From assembly GCA_024641965.1 (NCBI GenBank), contig JAHECC010000011.1, positions 1 through 45,775 on the forward strand: DNA of 45,775 bases. Direction: 5' to 3'. Below the pieces are notes generated by a model. It searched no databases. It worked only from the letters and a program-made list of their open reading frames with translations, and was not told the DNA's origin. This document shows, piece after piece, positions 1 through 17,067 of the stretch (position 1 is the first letter of the stretch; each line of letters starts with the position of its first letter). This DNA is from Rubrivivax sp. Its GTDB lineage: Bacteria > Pseudomonadota > Gammaproteobacteria > Burkholderiales > Burkholderiaceae_C. A program made the translations under genes and the position numbers.

Positions 1-247
1 CCACGCGCTCATCGGCACCCAGACGGTCATAGGCCATGCGGTCGGCCACCTGCACCAGGAACACCAGCCATTCGCTCAGGAAGGCGAAGTAGACCGCGCC
101 GATGTCGATGTCGAAGCGCGCACCGCGCATCTGCGTCAGCGCGTTGTGGGCCACCCGCCAGACGATGAAGGCCATCACGCCGGCCACCTGTTCCGGCGTC
201 TTCGGCTTGTCGGTCTTGAACCACTGGCTCTTCAGGCGGATGGCCAT
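1..247 (-). CDS. Conserved hypothetical protein, N-terminal part (runs off left edge)
   Basis: The first 82 residues can be read from an ATG at 247 with no stop before the window edge, starting MAIRLKSQWFKTDKPKTPEQ. The ORF track does not list this frame; the 65-aa ORF it lists here is a shadow in another frame. The segment is mixed polar and hydrophobic, with a central stretch rich in F, L and V (AVYFAFLSEWLVFLVQVADR), and has no signal peptide or cysteine motif. The start lies 13 bases after the stop of the upstream DsrC-like gene, so it is very probably the fourth gene of the same operon. I do not recognise a characterised family and assign no function. Its operon position suggests a role with the Cas6-like and DsrC-like proteins. 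Confidence 0.7.
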   Translation of the reverse strand, partial: MAIRLKSQWFKTDKPKTPEQVAGVMAFIVWRVAHNALTQMRGARFDIDIGAVYFAFLSEWLVFLVQVADRMAYDRLGADERV

Positions 248-260
248 GGCGGCTGCAGCG

Positions 261-590
261 TCAGTAGCCGCCCTTGCCCAGGGGCTGCGGCAGCCCGGCG
301 ACTTTGGCCGCCTGCTTGGCCGGGCCCATCGGGAACAGGTCGTACAAGGCCTTGCTGTCCACGCCGTCGCGGATCTCGGCCATGCCCTTGAGCAGGTTGC
401 GGAAGTTCGGGGTGTGGCCGTGTTCGCGGTACTGCTCGCGCTGGAAGTGGATGACCTCCCAGTGCGCCGGCGTCAGCGTGATGCCTTCGGCCGCGGCGAT
501 GACCTCGACCACCTCATCGCCGTAGTCGGGCTCGAGCAGGAAGCCCTGCTCGTCGCACTCCAATTCCACGCCGTTCACGCTGTAGCTCAT
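261..590 (-). CDS. DsrC/TusE-family protein lacking both C-terminal cysteines
   Basis: This 109-residue protein has the DsrC fold signature: the N-terminal motif VNGVELECDEQGFL, the helix motif HWEVIHFQREQY, and the C-terminal LYDLFPMGPAKQAAKVAGLP. Canonical DsrC ends in ACKIAGLPKPTGCV, with two redox cysteines. Here the first is alanine (about residue 95) and the second is lysine (about 106), in a divergent tail LGKGGY. The only cysteine is near residue 12. It therefore cannot form the DsrC disulfide or trisulfide. Cysteine-less DsrC homologues are known and have been proposed to be regulatory (RspA-type). A GGAG-type ribosome site precedes the ATG. The gene lies 30 bases after the Cas6-like gene in the same operon. 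Family assignment is firm; the role is open. Confidence 0.9.
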   Translation of the reverse strand: MSYSVNGVELECDEQGFLLEPDYGDEVVEVIAAAEGITLTPAHWEVIHFQREQYREHGHTPNFRNLLKGMAEIRDGVDSKALYDLFPMGPAKQAAKVAGLPQPLGKGGY

Positions 591-620
591 GCCAGGATCT
601 CCATTTCAACCGTCAAGGAT

Positions 621-1241
621 TCAGGCGCCGACGGCGGCCGCCGACTTGTGCGGCACGAACAGCCCGCAGCCCAGAGCGCGATGCGGCCCCAGCCCCAGCC
701 GCAGCAGCGTCAGCGAGTCGGTCGGGCTCAGCTGGTGCAGCATCAGGCTGAATCCGCTCAGCACCCCGGCGGCAGACTGCCGCTGCTGGCGCTTGCCGCA
801 CACCGCGAACGCACGGATGCCCAAGCGCGCCAGTTCGTCATGCACCGTGACCATGAACGCCGTCTCGTCGTCGCCTTCGGCGGCAACGAAGGTCGCATAC
901 AGCGTCGCGTATGGCACCAGCTCGTGGGGCCGGGCATCGCCGAGCCGCAAGTCGCTGCCGGCCACGGCCAACGTGCAGCCACCCAGCGGCGCCAGCGCCG
1001 GGACGCGCGACTGCGGCACCCGCAGCAGCAACCTGGCGCGGCGCGACAGCCAACCTTGCGGCTCGCTGCCGGGCACCAGCTTGATGCCGTGCACCCCGGC
1101 CGTCGGATGGCCTCGCAGCCACGGCAGCTGTGCGTCCAGCGCGTCGGCCAGCGCCTGCGCATGGTCGCGCGGCAGGCTGCGGCCGTCGATCGCAAATGCC
1201 ACGTCGACGGCGGCTTCATCCGGCAACGCCTGCAGCGTCAC
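621..1241 (-). CDS. Cas6/Cmx6-like protein (CRISPR RNA endonuclease fold) in a sulfur operon
   Basis: About 206 residues from a GTG at 1241. This start gives a four-base GTGA overlap with the stop of the upstream 71-aa gene, so I prefer it to the ATG at 1265. The N-terminus (VDVAFAIDGRSLPRDHAQAL) and the C-terminal glycine-rich segment (LGLGPHRALGCGLFVPHK, about residues 182-199) match my recollection of the type I-MYXAN Cas6/Cmx6 family. In Cas6 proteins this loop binds the crRNA repeat. H27 in the N-terminal motif could correspond to a Cas6 active-site histidine, but I cannot align it here. There is no CRISPR array and no other cas gene in the window. Its neighbours are a DsrC paralogue and two small unknown genes, so adaptation to a non-CRISPR RNA role is inferred. 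Confidence 0.8.
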   Translation of the reverse strand: MTLQALPDEAAVDVAFAIDGRSLPRDHAQALADALDAQLPWLRGHPTAGVHGIKLVPGSEPQGWLSRRARLLLRVPQSRVPALAPLGGCTLAVAGSDLRLGDARPHELVPYATLYATFVAAEGDDETAFMVTVHDELARLGIRAFAVCGKRQQRQSAAGVLSGFSLMLHQLSPTDSLTLLRLGLGPHRALGCGLFVPHKSAAAVGA

Positions 1242-1453
1242 GCCGACTCCTGCGCCCGGGCCCACTTGACCAGTGCCTCACCCCAGGCGGCGGCCGTCAG
1301 CGGGTCGATGTCGAAGACCGTGAAGCGACTGTGCTCGCGTATGCGCGTGCGCAGCAGGCTCATACCGCCGCTTTCCAGGTCGTGCTGCTGCAATTCGATC
1401 TCCTGCCCGCCCAGTGGCGCGCGCAGTTTCAGCAAGGGTGTGATGCGGTTCAT
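1238..1453 (-). CDS. Small conserved protein, first gene of the Cas6-like/DsrC-like operon
   Basis: A 71-residue soluble protein starting MNRITPLLKLRAPLGGQEIE, with a central motif GGMSLLRTRIREHSRFTVFDID and a helical C-terminus. The ORF track gives a 107-aa version. I prefer the internal ATG at 1453 because the upstream extension is low-complexity and unlike a conserved N-terminus. The stop at 1238 overlaps the GTG start of the Cas6-like gene (GTGA), which implies translational coupling. I recall similar small proteins beside Cas6/Cmx6-like and TusE/DsrC-like genes in other beta- and gammaproteobacteria, but have no name or function for it. There is no cysteine and no membrane segment. Confidence 0.72.
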   Translation of the reverse strand: MNRITPLLKLRAPLGGQEIELQQHDLESGGMSLLRTRIREHSRFTVFDIDPLTAAAWGEALVKWARAQESA

Positions 1454-1728: not shown

Positions 1729-3030
1729 ATGGCCAAGAAGCCCCACGACACGCCGTTGCTCGACCAGCTCGAGAGCGGCCCCTGGCCCAGCTTCGTCACC
1801 GGGCTGAAGCGCCTGGCGCAGGACAGCGACTATGTCGTCGACCTGCTGGGCACGCTCGAGACCTCGTACCGCACGAAGAAGGGCTACTGGAAAGGCGGCA
1901 CCGTCGGCGTGTTCGGCTACGGCGGCGGGGTCATCCCGCGCTTCACCGAGCTGAAGAACGAGGACGGCACCCCCGTCTATCCGGACGCCGCCGAGCTGCA
2001 CACGCTGCGCGTGCAGCCGCCGCCGGGCATGCACTACAACACCGACGTGCTGCGCAAGATGTGCGACATCTGGGAAAAGCACGGCACCGGCCTGATCGCC
2101 TTCCATGGCCAGAGCGGCGACATCATGTTCCAGGGCGCCAAGACCGACAAGGTGCAGGCCGCCTTCGACGACCTGAACGAACTCGGCTTCGACCTCGGCG
2201 GCGCCGGCCCGGCGGTACGCACCTCGATGAGCTGCGTCGGTGCGGCGCGCTGCGAGCAGAGCTGCTTCGACGAAGGGCGCGCGCACCGCCAGGTGATCAA
2301 TTCCTTCACCGACGACATTCACCGCCCCGCACTGCCCTACAAGTTCAAGTTCAAGTTCAGCGGCTGCAGCAACGACTGCATGAACTCGATCCAGCGCGCC
2401 GACATGGCGGTGATCGGCACCTGGCGCGACAACATGCGCAGCGACGAAGCCATGGCGCGCAAGTGGTTCGACAAGCACGGCATGACCGAACTGGTCAACG
2501 ACGTGGTCTCGCGCTGCCCGACCAAGGCCATCATGCTGAAGGAAGTCAAGGAGCTGCGCACCGGCGAGCACCTGACGACGGTGAAGGTCAGCGACACACA
2601 GGCGCTGGAGATCGACAACAAGAACTGCGTGCGCTGCATGCACTGCGTCAACGTCATGACCGGCGCGTTGGCCCACGGCACCGACACCGGCGCGACGATC
2701 CTGATCGGCGGCAAGCGCACGCTGAAGATCGGCGACCTGATGGGCACCGTGATCGTGCCCTTCATGCCGCTGAAGACCGACGAGGACTACGACGCCCTGG
2801 TCGAGCTGGGCCAGAAGGTGATCGACTTCTTCGCCGAGAACGCGCTCGAGCACGAGCGCACCGGCGAAATGATCGAGCGCATCGGCCTGGTCAACTTCCT
2901 CGAGGGCATCGGCGTCGAGATCGACCCGAACATGGTCGCCACGCCGCGCACCAACCCCTACGTGCGCACCGACGGCTGGGACGACGAAGTGGCGAAGATC
3001 AACGCGCGCAAGCAGCAACAGCCGGCCTGA
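1729..3030 (+). CDS. dsrA: Reverse dissimilatory sulfite reductase subunit alpha
   Basis: DsrA, 433 residues, a normal length. With DsrB it forms the cytoplasmic alpha2beta2 siroheme enzyme, which in this oxidative version converts sulfane sulfur delivered by DsrC to sulfite. The siroheme-[4Fe-4S] ligand motif is visible as CVGAARC (C169, C175) and CSNDC (C213, C217). The inserted ferredoxin domain is visible as C263 and CVRCMHC (C300, C303, C306). The start has a strong ribosome site (AAGGAGA). It is the first gene of a roughly 13-kb operon. The oxidative assignment rests on the neighbouring dsrEFH and dsrL and the absence of dsrD, not on DsrA itself. A short in-frame KFKFKF repeat lies just before the CSNDC motif. 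Confidence 0.98.
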   Translation: MAKKPHDTPLLDQLESGPWPSFVTGLKRLAQDSDYVVDLLGTLETSYRTKKGYWKGGTVGVFGYGGGVIPRFTELKNEDGTPVYPDAAELHTLRVQPPPGMHYNTDVLRKMCDIWEKHGTGLIAFHGQSGDIMFQGAKTDKVQAAFDDLNELGFDLGGAGPAVRTSMSCVGAARCEQSCFDEGRAHRQVINSFTDDIHRPALPYKFKFKFSGCSNDCMNSIQRADMAVIGTWRDNMRSDEAMARKWFDKHGMTELVNDVVSRCPTKAIMLKEVKELRTGEHLTTVKVSDTQALEIDNKNCVRCMHCVNVMTGALAHGTDTGATILIGGKRTLKIGDLMGTVIVPFMPLKTDEDYDALVELGQKVIDFFAENALEHERTGEMIERIGLVNFLEGIGVEIDPNMVATPRTNPYVRTDGWDDEVAKINARKQQQPA

Positions 3031-5233: not shown

Positions 5234-5566
5234 ATGAGCATCGAAGTCAACGGCACGACCTACGAGACCGACGAGGAAGGCTACCTCGTCAACCTGGCCG
5301 ACTGGACGCAGGAGATCGGCGAGCACATCGCCAAGGAAGAGAACCTGGAGATGAGCTCCAGCCACTGGGAAGTCGTCAACTTCCTGCGCGACTACTACAA
5401 CGAGTACCAGATCGCCCCAGCGGTGCGCGTGCTGACCAAGGCCATCGGCAAGCAGCTCGGACCGGACAAGGGCAACAGCAAGTACCTGTACGAGCTGTTC
5501 CCCTACGGCCCGGCCAAGCAGGCCTGCAAGATCGCCGGCCTGCCCAAGCCCACCGGCTGCGTCTGA
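5234..5566 (+). CDS. dsrC: DsrC, redox-active sulfur carrier
   Basis: Canonical DsrC, 110 residues, with both C-terminal arm cysteines (C98 and C109) in QACKIAGLPKPTGCV. The two are separated by ten residues, as in all functional DsrC proteins. It receives persulfide sulfur from DsrEFH, presents it to DsrAB, and its disulfide/thiol state is handled by DsrMKJOP. A GGAGAG ribosome site precedes the ATG. This is the only one of three DsrC homologues in the window that keeps the cysteines, so it is the catalytic one. Confidence 0.97.
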   Translation: MSIEVNGTTYETDEEGYLVNLADWTQEIGEHIAKEENLEMSSSHWEVVNFLRDYYNEYQIAPAVRVLTKAIGKQLGPDKGNSKYLYELFPYGPAKQACKIAGLPKPTGCV

Positions 5567-13646: not shown

Positions 13647-14006
13647 ATGAACGTCGTGCCGACCATGACAAGGACGCTGCGCGTCGCCGGCCGTGAGGTC
13701 GAGACCGACGCCGAAGGCTACTTGCGCCACCTGGACGACTGGTCGGAAGACTTCGCCCGGGCCGAGGCGCAGCGCGAGGGCCTGACGCTGAGCGACGAAC
13801 ACTGGCAGGTGATCCGCTTCCTGCGTGAGTACTTCCACGAACATCGCGTGCAGCCGCAGGTGCGCGTGATGATCCGGCACTTCGCGCAGGCCTGGGGGCC
13901 ACAGCGTGGCAACAACCACCACCTGCACGAACTGTTCCCGGTCGGCGGGCCGCAGAAGCAGGGCAATCGCTTGGCCGGCCTGCTGCGCACCAAGGGCGAG
14001 CACTGA
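13647..14006 (+). CDS. Second DsrC-family paralogue without cysteines, in the dsr operon
   Basis: 119 residues (an alternative start is MTRTLRV, six codons in). DsrC signatures are present: ETDAEGYLRHLDDW, EHWQVIRFLREYFHEH, QVRVMIRHFAQAWGP and HHLHELFPVG. The C-terminal arm reads KQGNRLAGLLRTKGEH, so the two DsrC cysteines are replaced by asparagine (about 107) and glutamate (about 118). The protein contains no cysteine and cannot carry persulfide. It begins directly after the dsrN stop. In A. vinosum this place holds dsrR (IscA-like) and dsrS, neither of which is found here. A regulatory or docking role is inferred. Confidence 0.9.
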   Translation: MNVVPTMTRTLRVAGREVETDAEGYLRHLDDWSEDFARAEAQREGLTLSDEHWQVIRFLREYFHEHRVQPQVRVMIRHFAQAWGPQRGNNHHLHELFPVGGPQKQGNRLAGLLRTKGEH

Positions 14007-14051: not shown

Positions 14052-14891
14052 ATGAAGTCCGATCAAGACTTTCTGCGCAGCCTAATGCGCGACAGCGACT
14101 GCACGCGCCAAGGTGCGGGCACCGTGCACCTGGTCGGCGCCGGCCCCGGTGACCCCGAACTGCTGACGCTGCGCGCGCTGCGCCTGCTCGCCCGGGCCGA
14201 TGCGATCGTCTACGACCACCTGGTGTCGCCGCAGGTGCTCGACTTCGTCTCGCCCGAGGCCGAGCGGATCTACGCCGGCAAGCAGCGCAACCGGCACAGC
14301 ATGCCGCAGCACGACATCAACCTGCTGCTGGTGCGGTTGGCGCGCCAAGGCAAGCATGTCGTGCGACTGAAGGGCGGCGACCCCTTCGTCTTCGGCCGCG
14401 GCGGCGAGGAAATGCAGGCGCTGGCCCAACACGGCGTGCCCTTCGAGGTGGTGCCCGGCATCACCGCCGCCTGCGGCGTGTCGTGTTACGCCGGCATCCC
14501 GCTGACGCACCGCGACCATGCGCAGTCCTGCCTGTTCGTCACCGGCCACCTGAAGGATGGCAGCTGCGACCTCGACTGGCCAGCGCTGGCGCGGCCGCGG
14601 CAGACGGTGGTGATCTACATGGGCTTGAGCGCGCTGGACGAGATCTGCGCGCAGCTGAAGGCGCACGGCGTGGCTGCCGACATGCCGGCGGCCGCGGTGC
14701 AGCAGGGCACGACCGCGCAGCATCGCGTCGTCACCGGCACGCTCGACACGCTGCCGCAGCGGGTGGCCGGACTGAAGTCGCCGAGCCTGATCATCGTCGG
14801 CGAGGTCGTGCGACTGCACGACACGCTGGCCTGGTTCGAGCCGCCGGCTGCCGAGGTGGACGCGCCGCTGGAGCTGGCGCTCAGCGCGTAG
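14052..14891 (+). CDS. cobA: Uroporphyrinogen-III C-methyltransferase (SUMT)
   Basis: 279 residues. The family motifs of S-adenosylmethionine-dependent uroporphyrinogen-III methyltransferase are clear: [37 protein letters not shown] and [10 protein letters not shown]. It makes precorrin-2, the siroheme precursor. There is no CysG-type dehydrogenase/ferrochelatase domain, so oxidation and iron insertion must come from elsewhere. An AAGGGAG ribosome site precedes the start. As the last plus-strand gene of the block it probably supplies the DsrAB prosthetic group. Its last 11 bases overlap the convergent response-regulator gene. Confidence 0.95.
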
Positions 14892-15576
14892 GCTTGGCGC
14901 TCTCGGCGCTGCGCGCGGCGCCGGCCGGCGTGCTGCGGAACTCCACCGCGAACACCGCCGCCTCGACGCGCGAGCTGAGGTTCAGCTTCGACAGGATATG
15001 GCGCACGTGCAGCTTCACCGTGTCGTGGCTGATGTCGAGCGCACGCGCGATGGTCTTGTTGCTTTCACCGCGCGACAGATGCTCGAGGATCTGCCGCTCG
15101 CGCTCGGTCAGGGATTCGAACTGGCTGCTGCGCGTGTCGCCCTTGGCACCGGACTGCAGCATCTGCGCCAGCTTCAGCGTCATCGCCGGCGCCACCACCA
15201 ACTCGCCCCGCGCAGCGCGGCCGATCGCGCCGATGACCTCGTCGGGCTCCATGTCCTTGAGCAGATAACCGCGCACGCCGGCGCGCAAGGCCGCCGCCAT
15301 GTCCTCCTCGGCGTCGCTCATCGTCAGGATGACGATCGGCGTGTCGATGCCCTCCACGCGCAGCCGCCGGGCCAGCGTCAGGCCGTCGGTGCTCGGCATG
15401 CGCAGGTCCAGCACCAGCAGGTCGGGCCGGTGTTCGCGCAACAGAGCGGACACCGCGTCGGTGTCGCCGGTTGCGACCACCACCTGCATGCCGCCACGCC
15501 TCTCGAACAGTTCGGTCAGACCGTTGCGGCACAGCGCATGGTCGTCGACCAGGGCGACGCGCAGCGGCGCGTTCAC
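14881..15576 (-). CDS. NarL/FixJ-family response regulator
   Basis: 231 residues from a GTG at 15576, which forms a GTGA overlap with the kinase stop. The ORF track places the start 17 codons upstream, inside the kinase gene. An N-terminal receiver has the acidic pair VDDH and the phospho-acceptor in [13 protein letters not shown]-terminal LuxR-type helix-turn-helix reads [40 protein letters not shown]. It is the cognate partner of the upstream kinase. The position right behind the dsr operon and the shared operator-like sites suggest control of dsr, but this is inference. Confidence 0.93.
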
Positions 15577-16778
15577 GGCGTCACGCTCCGCCCGCCTTCG
15601 CCGATGGGGATGCTCAGCCGCACACACGTGCCGCCCCCATCGCGCGCCTGAACTGCCAATGTGCCCCCCAAACGCTGCGCGCGCTCGCGCATGATGTCGA
15701 GGCCGAAATGCGCACCGTCCTCGGCAGGCTCGGCCCCGTGCAGGCCAGCCACCGAAATGCCGGCGCCGTCGTCCTCGACGACGACATGCAGGTCGCCGCC
15801 GACACGGTGGACCGCCACATGGGCCTGCCGCGCCCGCGAGTGCCTGGCCACGTTGGCCAGCGCCTCCTGCACGATGTGGAACACCTGCAGCTCCTGCTCC
15901 ACCGACAGGTGCAACGCTGCGGCACGACTGTCGACAACCAGCCGGATGCCATGGCGATCGAGGTAGCCGGCCTGCAGCCCGCGCAATGCATGCAGCAGGC
16001 CCTTCGGGTCCATGCGCGTGCGGAAGTGCGTCAGGATCTGACGCAGACTGGCGTGGGCGTCGCTGACGGCCTGACGCAGGTCGTCTTGGTACTTCAGCGC
16101 GCGCGCATCGTCGTGCGCGATCAGCGCATCGTGCAGCAGCGGCAGCCGCATCTTCATGTAGACGAGCGTCTGCGCCACCGCGTCGTGGACTTCGCCGGCG
16201 AGCATCTGCCGCTCGTGCAGCACCGCAGCGCGCAGTTGCTCACGCTCAAGCCGCGCGTGGTGCAGGGCCAGCCCCAGCAGCTCGCCCACGGGTCGCAGCA
16301 GCGCGGCGACTTCGGTTCGCGGCGGCGTGCCGCGCGCGTAGAACAGGTTGACGACGCCGAGCACCTGATCGCGATAGCGCAGCGGCACTGCCGTCACGCT
16401 GTCGAAGCCATGGCCGATGAACTCGCCTGCGTTGTGCTTCACGCAGAGGCGCAGGTCATCGGTCCACACGGCCGGCGCACCGGCCAGCGCCTGGCCGCAG
16501 ACACCGCAGTCGCGCTCGACCTCGCGCTCGCCGGCAAGCAGATCCTGATCCAGGCCGACGCTGCCCAGCAGCCGCATGTGCGTGCCGTCGTCGCTCAGTG
16601 TGCGCACTGCGCCGGCCTTCGCACCGGACAGGCGCAACAACGGCTCCAGAAAGCGCTGCAACAGGGCTTCGAGGTCGTCGCCAGCGGCCAGCCCGGCCGT
16701 CAGCTCGGCCAGGAGCTCGCCCACCGGCGGCGACGCGGCGGGCGGCATGGCAATGACAACGGGCGAGGAGACGTTCAT
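15573..16778 (-). CDS. Cytoplasmic GAF-domain sensor histidine kinase (NarX/DegS type)
   Basis: 401 residues from the ATG at 16778; the upstream 22 codons of the ORF look non-native. There is no membrane segment. A GAF-like domain spans about residues 30-175 and contains RDCGVCGQAL (C91, C94) and LRLCVKH (C112), a possible metal, iron-sulfur or thiol sensing site. A HisKA_3 domain has the phospho-histidine in EVHDAVAQTL (H198). It is followed by a HATPase domain with EALANVARHSRA, DDGAGI and GLDIMRERAQRLGG. It is co-translated with the NarL-type regulator. The ligand is unknown; a redox or sulfur signal is plausible from the location. Confidence 0.92.
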   Translation of the reverse strand: MNVSSPVVIAMPPAASPPVGELLAELTAGLAAGDDLEALLQRFLEPLLRLSGAKAGAVRTLSDDGTHMRLLGSVGLDQDLLAGEREVERDCGVCGQALAGAPAVWTDDLRLCVKHNAGEFIGHGFDSVTAVPLRYRDQVLGVVNLFYARGTPPRTEVAALLRPVGELLGLALHHARLEREQLRAAVLHERQMLAGEVHDAVAQTLVYMKMRLPLLHDALIAHDDARALKYQDDLRQAVSDAHASLRQILTHFRTRMDPKGLLHALRGLQAGYLDRHGIRLVVDSRAAALHLSVEQELQVFHIVQEALANVARHSRARQAHVAVHRVGGDLHVVVEDDGAGISVAGLHGAEPAEDGAHFGLDIMRERAQRLGGTLAVQARDGGGTCVRLSIPIGEGGRSVTP

Positions 16779-16905
16779 TTTCAGTAGGCTGGGGCAATGC
16801 CGCTCAAGGCCGCATCGCCGTCGGGCAATTGCAAACCATAGCACCCCTCGACGCCATCGGTTGTGACCCGACGCCTGGCCGCCTGCTCGACCACCGCTGT
16901 CCTGG

Positions 16906-16925
16906 GCTACCCATTTGGGCTACGG
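16906..16925. promoter_or_regulatory. Candidate operator related to the site upstream of dsrA
   Basis: GCTACCCATTTGGGCTACGG contains the NarL-like heptamer TACCCAT in a near-palindrome (CTACCCATTTGGGCTAC). Its reverse complement and the site at 1552-1568 agree at 13 of 17 positions and share AATGGGTAG. It lies in the 289-base gap between the kinase start (16778) and the Rieske-fusion start (17068), where it could serve autoregulation. A further TTACCC follows at about 16930, and a TATAG stretch at about 16944. The remainder of the gap is GC-rich with nothing else recognisable. Confidence 0.45.
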
Positions 16926-17067
16926 GCCATTACCCTTCCCGGCTATAGACGCCCCGCGGCCCGCTTGCGCTAATCGCGGCACTGGATGATGCCTGCGCGA
17001 TCGCGCGCCGGCCGGACGCGGCGGCCCGCGCGACACACGAACTTCCCGCCGATTGGCTGAGCACACG

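Follow-up and report, generated by a model that had tools for sequence, protein, structure and literature searches.

The window, the whole stretch of 45,775 nucleotides analysed here, opens at its left end with four tightly packed genes on the minus strand, which lie beside a reverse-dsr (rDsr) cluster on the plus strand. The first gene of the minus-strand set (1238-1453) encodes a 71-residue protein of family DUF6967 (PF22295, 4.4e-27); it shares a 4-nt overlap, GTGA, with the second gene (621-1241, minus strand, GTG start), which encodes a 206-residue Cas6/Cmx6 homologue recognised by PF09559, TIGR02807 and the PADLOC Cas6 models, and also by AlphaFold2 and Foldseek, and which belongs to a clade linked to dsr. 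A gap of 30 bases separates this gene from that of a 109-residue DsrC-family paralogue (261-590, minus strand), and another of 13 bases leads to the gene of a helical protein (2-247, minus strand), of which only the N-terminal 82 residues are encoded because the left end of the window coincides with the end of a contig (C27 of the source genome). The packing of these four genes is as the first-pass annotation had described it. The divergent intergenic region (1454-1728, no strand assigned) places 275 bases between the minus-strand set and dsrA (1729-3030, plus strand), the first gene of the rDsr cluster beside the module, and it contains two dyads, at about 1528-1541 and 1553-1567, that are conserved across an alignment of 59 loci.

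A second contig of the same genome, C68, has an exact overlap of 121 nt with this end of the window and completes the helical protein, which in full has 201 residues. On this contig the helical protein is followed by a gene of the TauD family (PF02668, 3.1e-17) and, further on, by genes for a rhodanese and a sulfur-transport protein. The same gene order is seen again in dozens of independent loci, which puts the arrangement far beyond chance. Two types of locus can be distinguished: in the betaproteobacterial type, the only one in which DUF6967 is matched, the TauD-family gene comes after the helical protein; in the gammaproteobacterial type it stands between dsrA and the Cas6-like gene. In a 1.1-Mb genome the genes beside dsrA encode TauD, the Cas6-like and DsrC-like proteins, two small proteins, a second 2OG-Fe(II) oxygenase and the helical protein. 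Some gammaproteobacterial loci also carry, near the module and after the second 2OG-Fe(II) oxygenase, a YbiB/TrpD2-like protein (L079, 12708-13829; L158, 12516-13631), of a family described as DNA-binding.

The 71-residue and helical proteins had been considered as two unknown small proteins. The former is a DUF6967 protein; the latter has no relative in Pfam and no fold match in the PDB, and it forms a conserved family of its own, as its profile is found in 107 genomes, 103 of which also have Cas6. The AlphaFold2 model of one of its homologues (pLDDT 91.8) consists of six helices.

The third member of the set matches the DsrC family models (PF04358, 6.7e-33; TIGR03342, 96 bits) and is close to solved DsrC structures. 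It differs from DsrC and TusE proteins in lacking both C-terminal redox cysteines, the penultimate one and the one upstream, at whose places the motifs KQAAK and GKGGY are found, in its invariant KGGY tail (27/27 aligned copies) and in its fixed place beside the Cas6-like gene. The difference is visible at the C-terminus, which reads KQACKIAGLPKPTGCV in the product of the canonical dsrC of the window and KQAAKVAGLPQPLGKGGY in the paralogue. Cys12 remains, so the heading of the first-pass annotation, which called this protein cysteine-less, was right about the redox cysteines and wrong about the protein as a whole. A few homologues retain the upstream redox cysteine only. As the redox cysteines are missing, a role as sulfur carrier is unlikely, and a natural guess would be that the paralogue docks in place of DsrC. 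The cysteine-free 'RspA' subgroup described for DsrC proteins is probably among its closest known counterparts. A third DsrC-family protein, of 119 residues, is encoded within the dsr cluster of the window (13647-14006); it also has no C-terminal cysteine and ends in TKGEH.

The assignment of the 206-residue protein to Cas6 is highly significant: it scores 182.1 bits against the Pfam Cas6 family (PF09559, 1.4e-53; cut-off 26.7) and 139.5 bits against the NCBIfam model cas6_cmx6 (TIGR02807), above the equivalog cut-off of 98.85, and several PADLOC Cas6 models match it. The AlphaFold2 model, built from 51 sequences, has a pLDDT of 94.2 and displays tandem ferredoxin-like (RAMP) domains with a C-terminal glycine-rich loop, the latter being also evident in the alignment. 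Its best PDB matches by Foldseek are 8fcj and 8fcu, the Cas6 of a type I-B CAST, with TM scores of 0.82-0.86 (the values of 0.85-0.86 being scaled by query length), followed by Pyrococcus Cas6 and Cse3. The profile search and the structure prediction therefore agree with the Cas6 fold proposed at first pass. The glycine-rich loop on which that proposal was based is present at residues 183-199 (GLGPHRALGCGLFVPHK) and is nearly invariant, as LGLGPHRALGCGLFVPHK, among 129 distinct homologues. A putative catalytic histidine, His27, lies at the start of alpha-1; it was assigned as the putative active-site residue from this position and is kept in 117/129 homologues and replaced in 12/129. His26 of TtCas6e is likewise located in alpha-1, and an active-site histidine is found in most Cas6 proteins, not in all (PMC3652601).

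In family model, tandem ferredoxin-like fold and glycine-rich loop the dsr-type proteins are thus similar to the Cas6/Cmx6 of type I-MYXAN and I-B CRISPR systems, such as the cas6 product of the Gloeothece citriformis plasmid pP742402 and the Cas6 of the type I-B CAST (PDB 8fcj), and the alpha-1 histidine is found in most of them and in six of seven Cas6/Cmx6 comparators. They nevertheless carry a signature of their own: R68 and R74 are present in 129/129 distinct sequences, E126 in 127, G149 in 128, H198 in 126 and K199 in 124, whereas E126, G149, H198 and K199 are absent at these places from the seven comparators and R68 is found in only one of them. Moreover, the dsr-type proteins are neutral to acidic instead of basic, with a median pI of 6.5 against 9.2-9.6 in the comparators and a net charge of -2 against +5 to +10. 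A glycine loop and an alpha-1 histidine that are largely kept, together with the disappearance of the basic charge, look like neofunctionalisation with partial retention of the catalytic corner. For the pairs used here, dN/dS is unreliable through saturation.

A structured RNA target was not found in a scan of 148 windows of the dsr transcript, in which the top-ranking window is a zero-variance artefact. The best usable signal, located at about 5518-5543, where dsrC ends, was rejected as a codon artefact because the seven pairs are all intact in only 19 of 42 sequences and the substitutions are as expected from codon degeneracy. Rfam gave no match in the window at the gathering threshold. The dyad upstream of dsrA, TANCCCNNNNGGGTA, is conserved in many Burkholderiales, and it occurs again as a pair at 16908-16922 and 16931-16945 of the window, adjoining the genes of a GAF histidine kinase (15573-16844) and a LuxR/NarL-type response regulator (14881-15627), and once more on contig C68 (L200, 7186-7200), in front of a sulfur gene. 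Because of these further occurrences, we rejected the dyads as Cas6 hairpins and read them as probable operators of a transcription factor; the motif is similar to operators of the NarL family and could be the mark of a regulon for sulfur oxidation.

In an unrooted maximum-likelihood tree, 71 dsr-type proteins are split with a support of 100/99 from the seven comparators, which comprise five proteins encoded beside cas genes, the CAST protein and one Gloeobacter protein without a cas neighbour in the stretch shown. The gene of the latter, located on a plasmid (L108, 3971-4762), stands beside a gene of the phosphoadenosine-phosphosulfate-reductase family and genes of hypothetical proteins; the 8.6 kb shown include no cas gene, and this Cmx6 could be a further one without a CRISPR role. 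The distances between dsr-type proteins follow those between the corresponding DsrA proteins (Mantel r 0.78 over 47 loci, 0/2000 permutations).

The association with dsrA was then quantified in 368 genomes spread evenly across the Gammaproteobacteria (GTDB sense): PF09559 Cas6 and dsrA are found together in 110, Cas6 only in 7, dsrA only in 8 and neither in 243 (Fisher p 2e-74, shared ancestry being ignored in this value). Among 119 relatives, 35 have both the Cas6-like gene and dsrA, one the Cas6-like gene only, none dsrA only and 83 neither. The two genes are also physically linked, since the Cas6-like copies of the 110 double carriers lie within 6 kb of dsrA in 81 cases, on another contig in 27 and farther away on the same contig in 2, and of the five Cas6-only genomes that were examined, out of seven, four reach the end of the contig on the side where dsrA would lie. 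The Cas6-like gene of some giant sulfur bacteria (Parabeggiatoa, Thiomargarita, Marithrix) is solitary: it is distant from dsr, and no cas gene lies near it. One genome that is 99% complete (G326, locus L210) has a dsr cluster and no match for the Cas6-like or the helical protein; as the contig stops a short way upstream of dsrA, the absence reflects either a true loss or an assembly gap. PF09559 was absent from all 45 dsrA-bearing genomes of the same phylum (Pseudomonadota) outside the Gammaproteobacteria (GTDB sense), from which it follows that DsrAB as such does not need the Cas6-like protein and that the tie between the two is specific to this class. On the basis of co-occurrence, linkage and phylogeny, we conclude that a Cmx6-type Cas6 has been exapted into the reverse-Dsr pathway as an accessory component in sulfur-oxidising Gammaproteobacteria (GTDB sense, former Betaproteobacteria included), with a probability of about 0.95, and that this probably happened once. 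The same co-occurrence, linkage and clade give strong support to the earlier suggestion that the Cas6 fold had been taken up for a role connected with sulfur metabolism.

Cas6 normally cuts CRISPR RNA, and the dsr-type protein might accordingly be an ordinary CRISPR Cas6, one that acts on arrays in trans or has outlived the system to which it belonged. The NCBIfam equivalog model does label it Cas6/Cmx6, and Cas1 is somewhat more frequent in carrier relatives (17/36) than in non-carriers (24/83; p = 0.06). Nevertheless, Cas1 is missing from the source genome and from 28 of 47 sampled carriers, including the complete single-contig genomes G138, G153, G163, G199, G201, G251 and G430, and no CRISPR array was detected in the window, in contig C68 or in the 1.096 Mb of G261, a near-complete 1.09-Mb carrier genome without Cas1, by a script that detects the array of a Nostoc plasmid; its candidate arrays in G261 proved to be tandem repeats, most of which are of coding type or sit at the end of a contig. 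Homologues of cas3, cas5, cas7 and cas8, searched with the Cas3, Cas5, Cas7 and Cas8 proteins of two MYXAN systems, were found in 0/105 dsr-type loci and in all five CRISPR-linked comparators, and among the four module proteins PADLOC matched a defence gene only for Cas6, the other neighbours being dsr and sulfur genes. Together with conservation throughout the class under a distinct residue signature, these results lead us to reject action in trans and make a CRISPR function of any kind highly improbable; they are in keeping with the first-pass annotation, which had seen neither an array nor another cas gene.

Of what an accessory component of rDsr might do, the explanation that we prefer involves RNA. 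The Cas6-like protein would have joined rDsr in a module with the redox-inactive DsrC paralogue, the helical protein and the TauD-family dioxygenase; it would bind a single, specific RNA of the cell and, in the majority of lineages, cleave it with the retained alpha-1 histidine, and this binding or cleavage would determine how much rDsr is present or how active it is. Unable to carry sulfur in the way DsrC does, the DsrC paralogue would report the state of the pathway by docking at DsrC sites, a docking or sensing role already proposed at first pass and for which co-conservation is the argument. The accessory role agrees with the co-occurrence, proximity and single clade described above, with the maintenance of the module in a 1.1-Mb genome and with the lack of cas effectors in 105 loci, and the involvement of RNA is favoured by the Cas6 fold, the near-invariant loop and the histidine. 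However, the loss of charge counts against general RNA binding, His27 is replaced in some homologues, the search of the dsr transcript, the dyads and Rfam yielded no RNA target, and the 45 dsrA-bearing genomes outside the class do without the gene. Control of rDsr by an exapted Cas6 through RNA, with the DsrC paralogue as sensor, is as a whole a tentative proposal with somewhat less than an even chance, in which the part played by RNA, the identity of that RNA and the sensing are inferred. It is also possible, at perhaps one chance in three, that the Cas6 fold is without RNA function and serves as a protein adaptor or maturation factor, in an assembly with the KGGY-tailed paralogue and the helical protein that would act on DsrAB, DsrC or some other rDsr component by maturing, protecting or modifying it; the TauD-family enzyme would then be a protein or small-molecule hydroxylase. 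The vanished basic charge, the new invariant positions R68, E126, G149, H198 and K199, not common to the comparators, and the nature of the partners, which are of the DsrC and dioxygenase kinds and include no known RNA enzymes, all fit such an adaptor, but two features tied to RNA cleavage by Cas6, the alpha-1 histidine and the glycine loop, are largely kept. Finally, TusE and the DsrC paralogue belong to the same Pfam family, and the module could act in thiolation or modification of tRNA or other RNA, with the DsrC/TusE-like protein as relay and the Cas6-like protein as RNA-binding subunit; this we consider improbable, as the paralogue lacks the C-terminal relay cysteine and reaches only 87.9 bits against the TusE equivalog (cut-off 191), and the tie is to dsrA, not to general tRNA metabolism.

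The rDsr cluster of Allochromatium vinosum has been described as dsrABEFHCMKLJOPNRS (PMC3368242); a cluster of this kind is the divergent neighbour of the module, whose Cas6-like, DsrC-like, helical and TauD genes are absent from that description. A 2024 study on the evolution of Dsr-mediated sulfur oxidation does not mention CRISPR or Cas6 (PMC11406059), and we found no published account of the association or of the module in the open-access literature, an earlier notice in subscription papers being possible. The constant company of dsr genes in which the Cas6-like protein occurs, in the absence of a CRISPR system, suggests that the Cas6-like module is an unrecognised accessory module of rDsr sulfur oxidation in many beta- and gammaproteobacteria, and that the database label Cas6/Cmx6 (TIGR02807, PF09559) misreports many proteobacterial genes as parts of CRISPR systems. 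In free-living bacteria, in giant filamentous sulfur bacteria and, judging from genomes of 1.0-1.1 Mb, probably in symbionts, a CRISPR processing protein appears to accompany almost constantly a pathway that is central to energy metabolism in the sulfur cycle. If this is right, a cas gene has been put to wide use outside immunity, and the rDsr pathway gains several candidate components. A further reading, to which we give just under an even chance, is that the domesticated Cas6 works with the DsrC paralogue, the helical protein and the TauD-family dioxygenase as one machine, so far undescribed and either an RNA-based regulator or a protein-maturation complex, and that rDsr-type sulfur oxidation needs it throughout the Gammaproteobacteria, including those with genomes of about 1.1 Mb.
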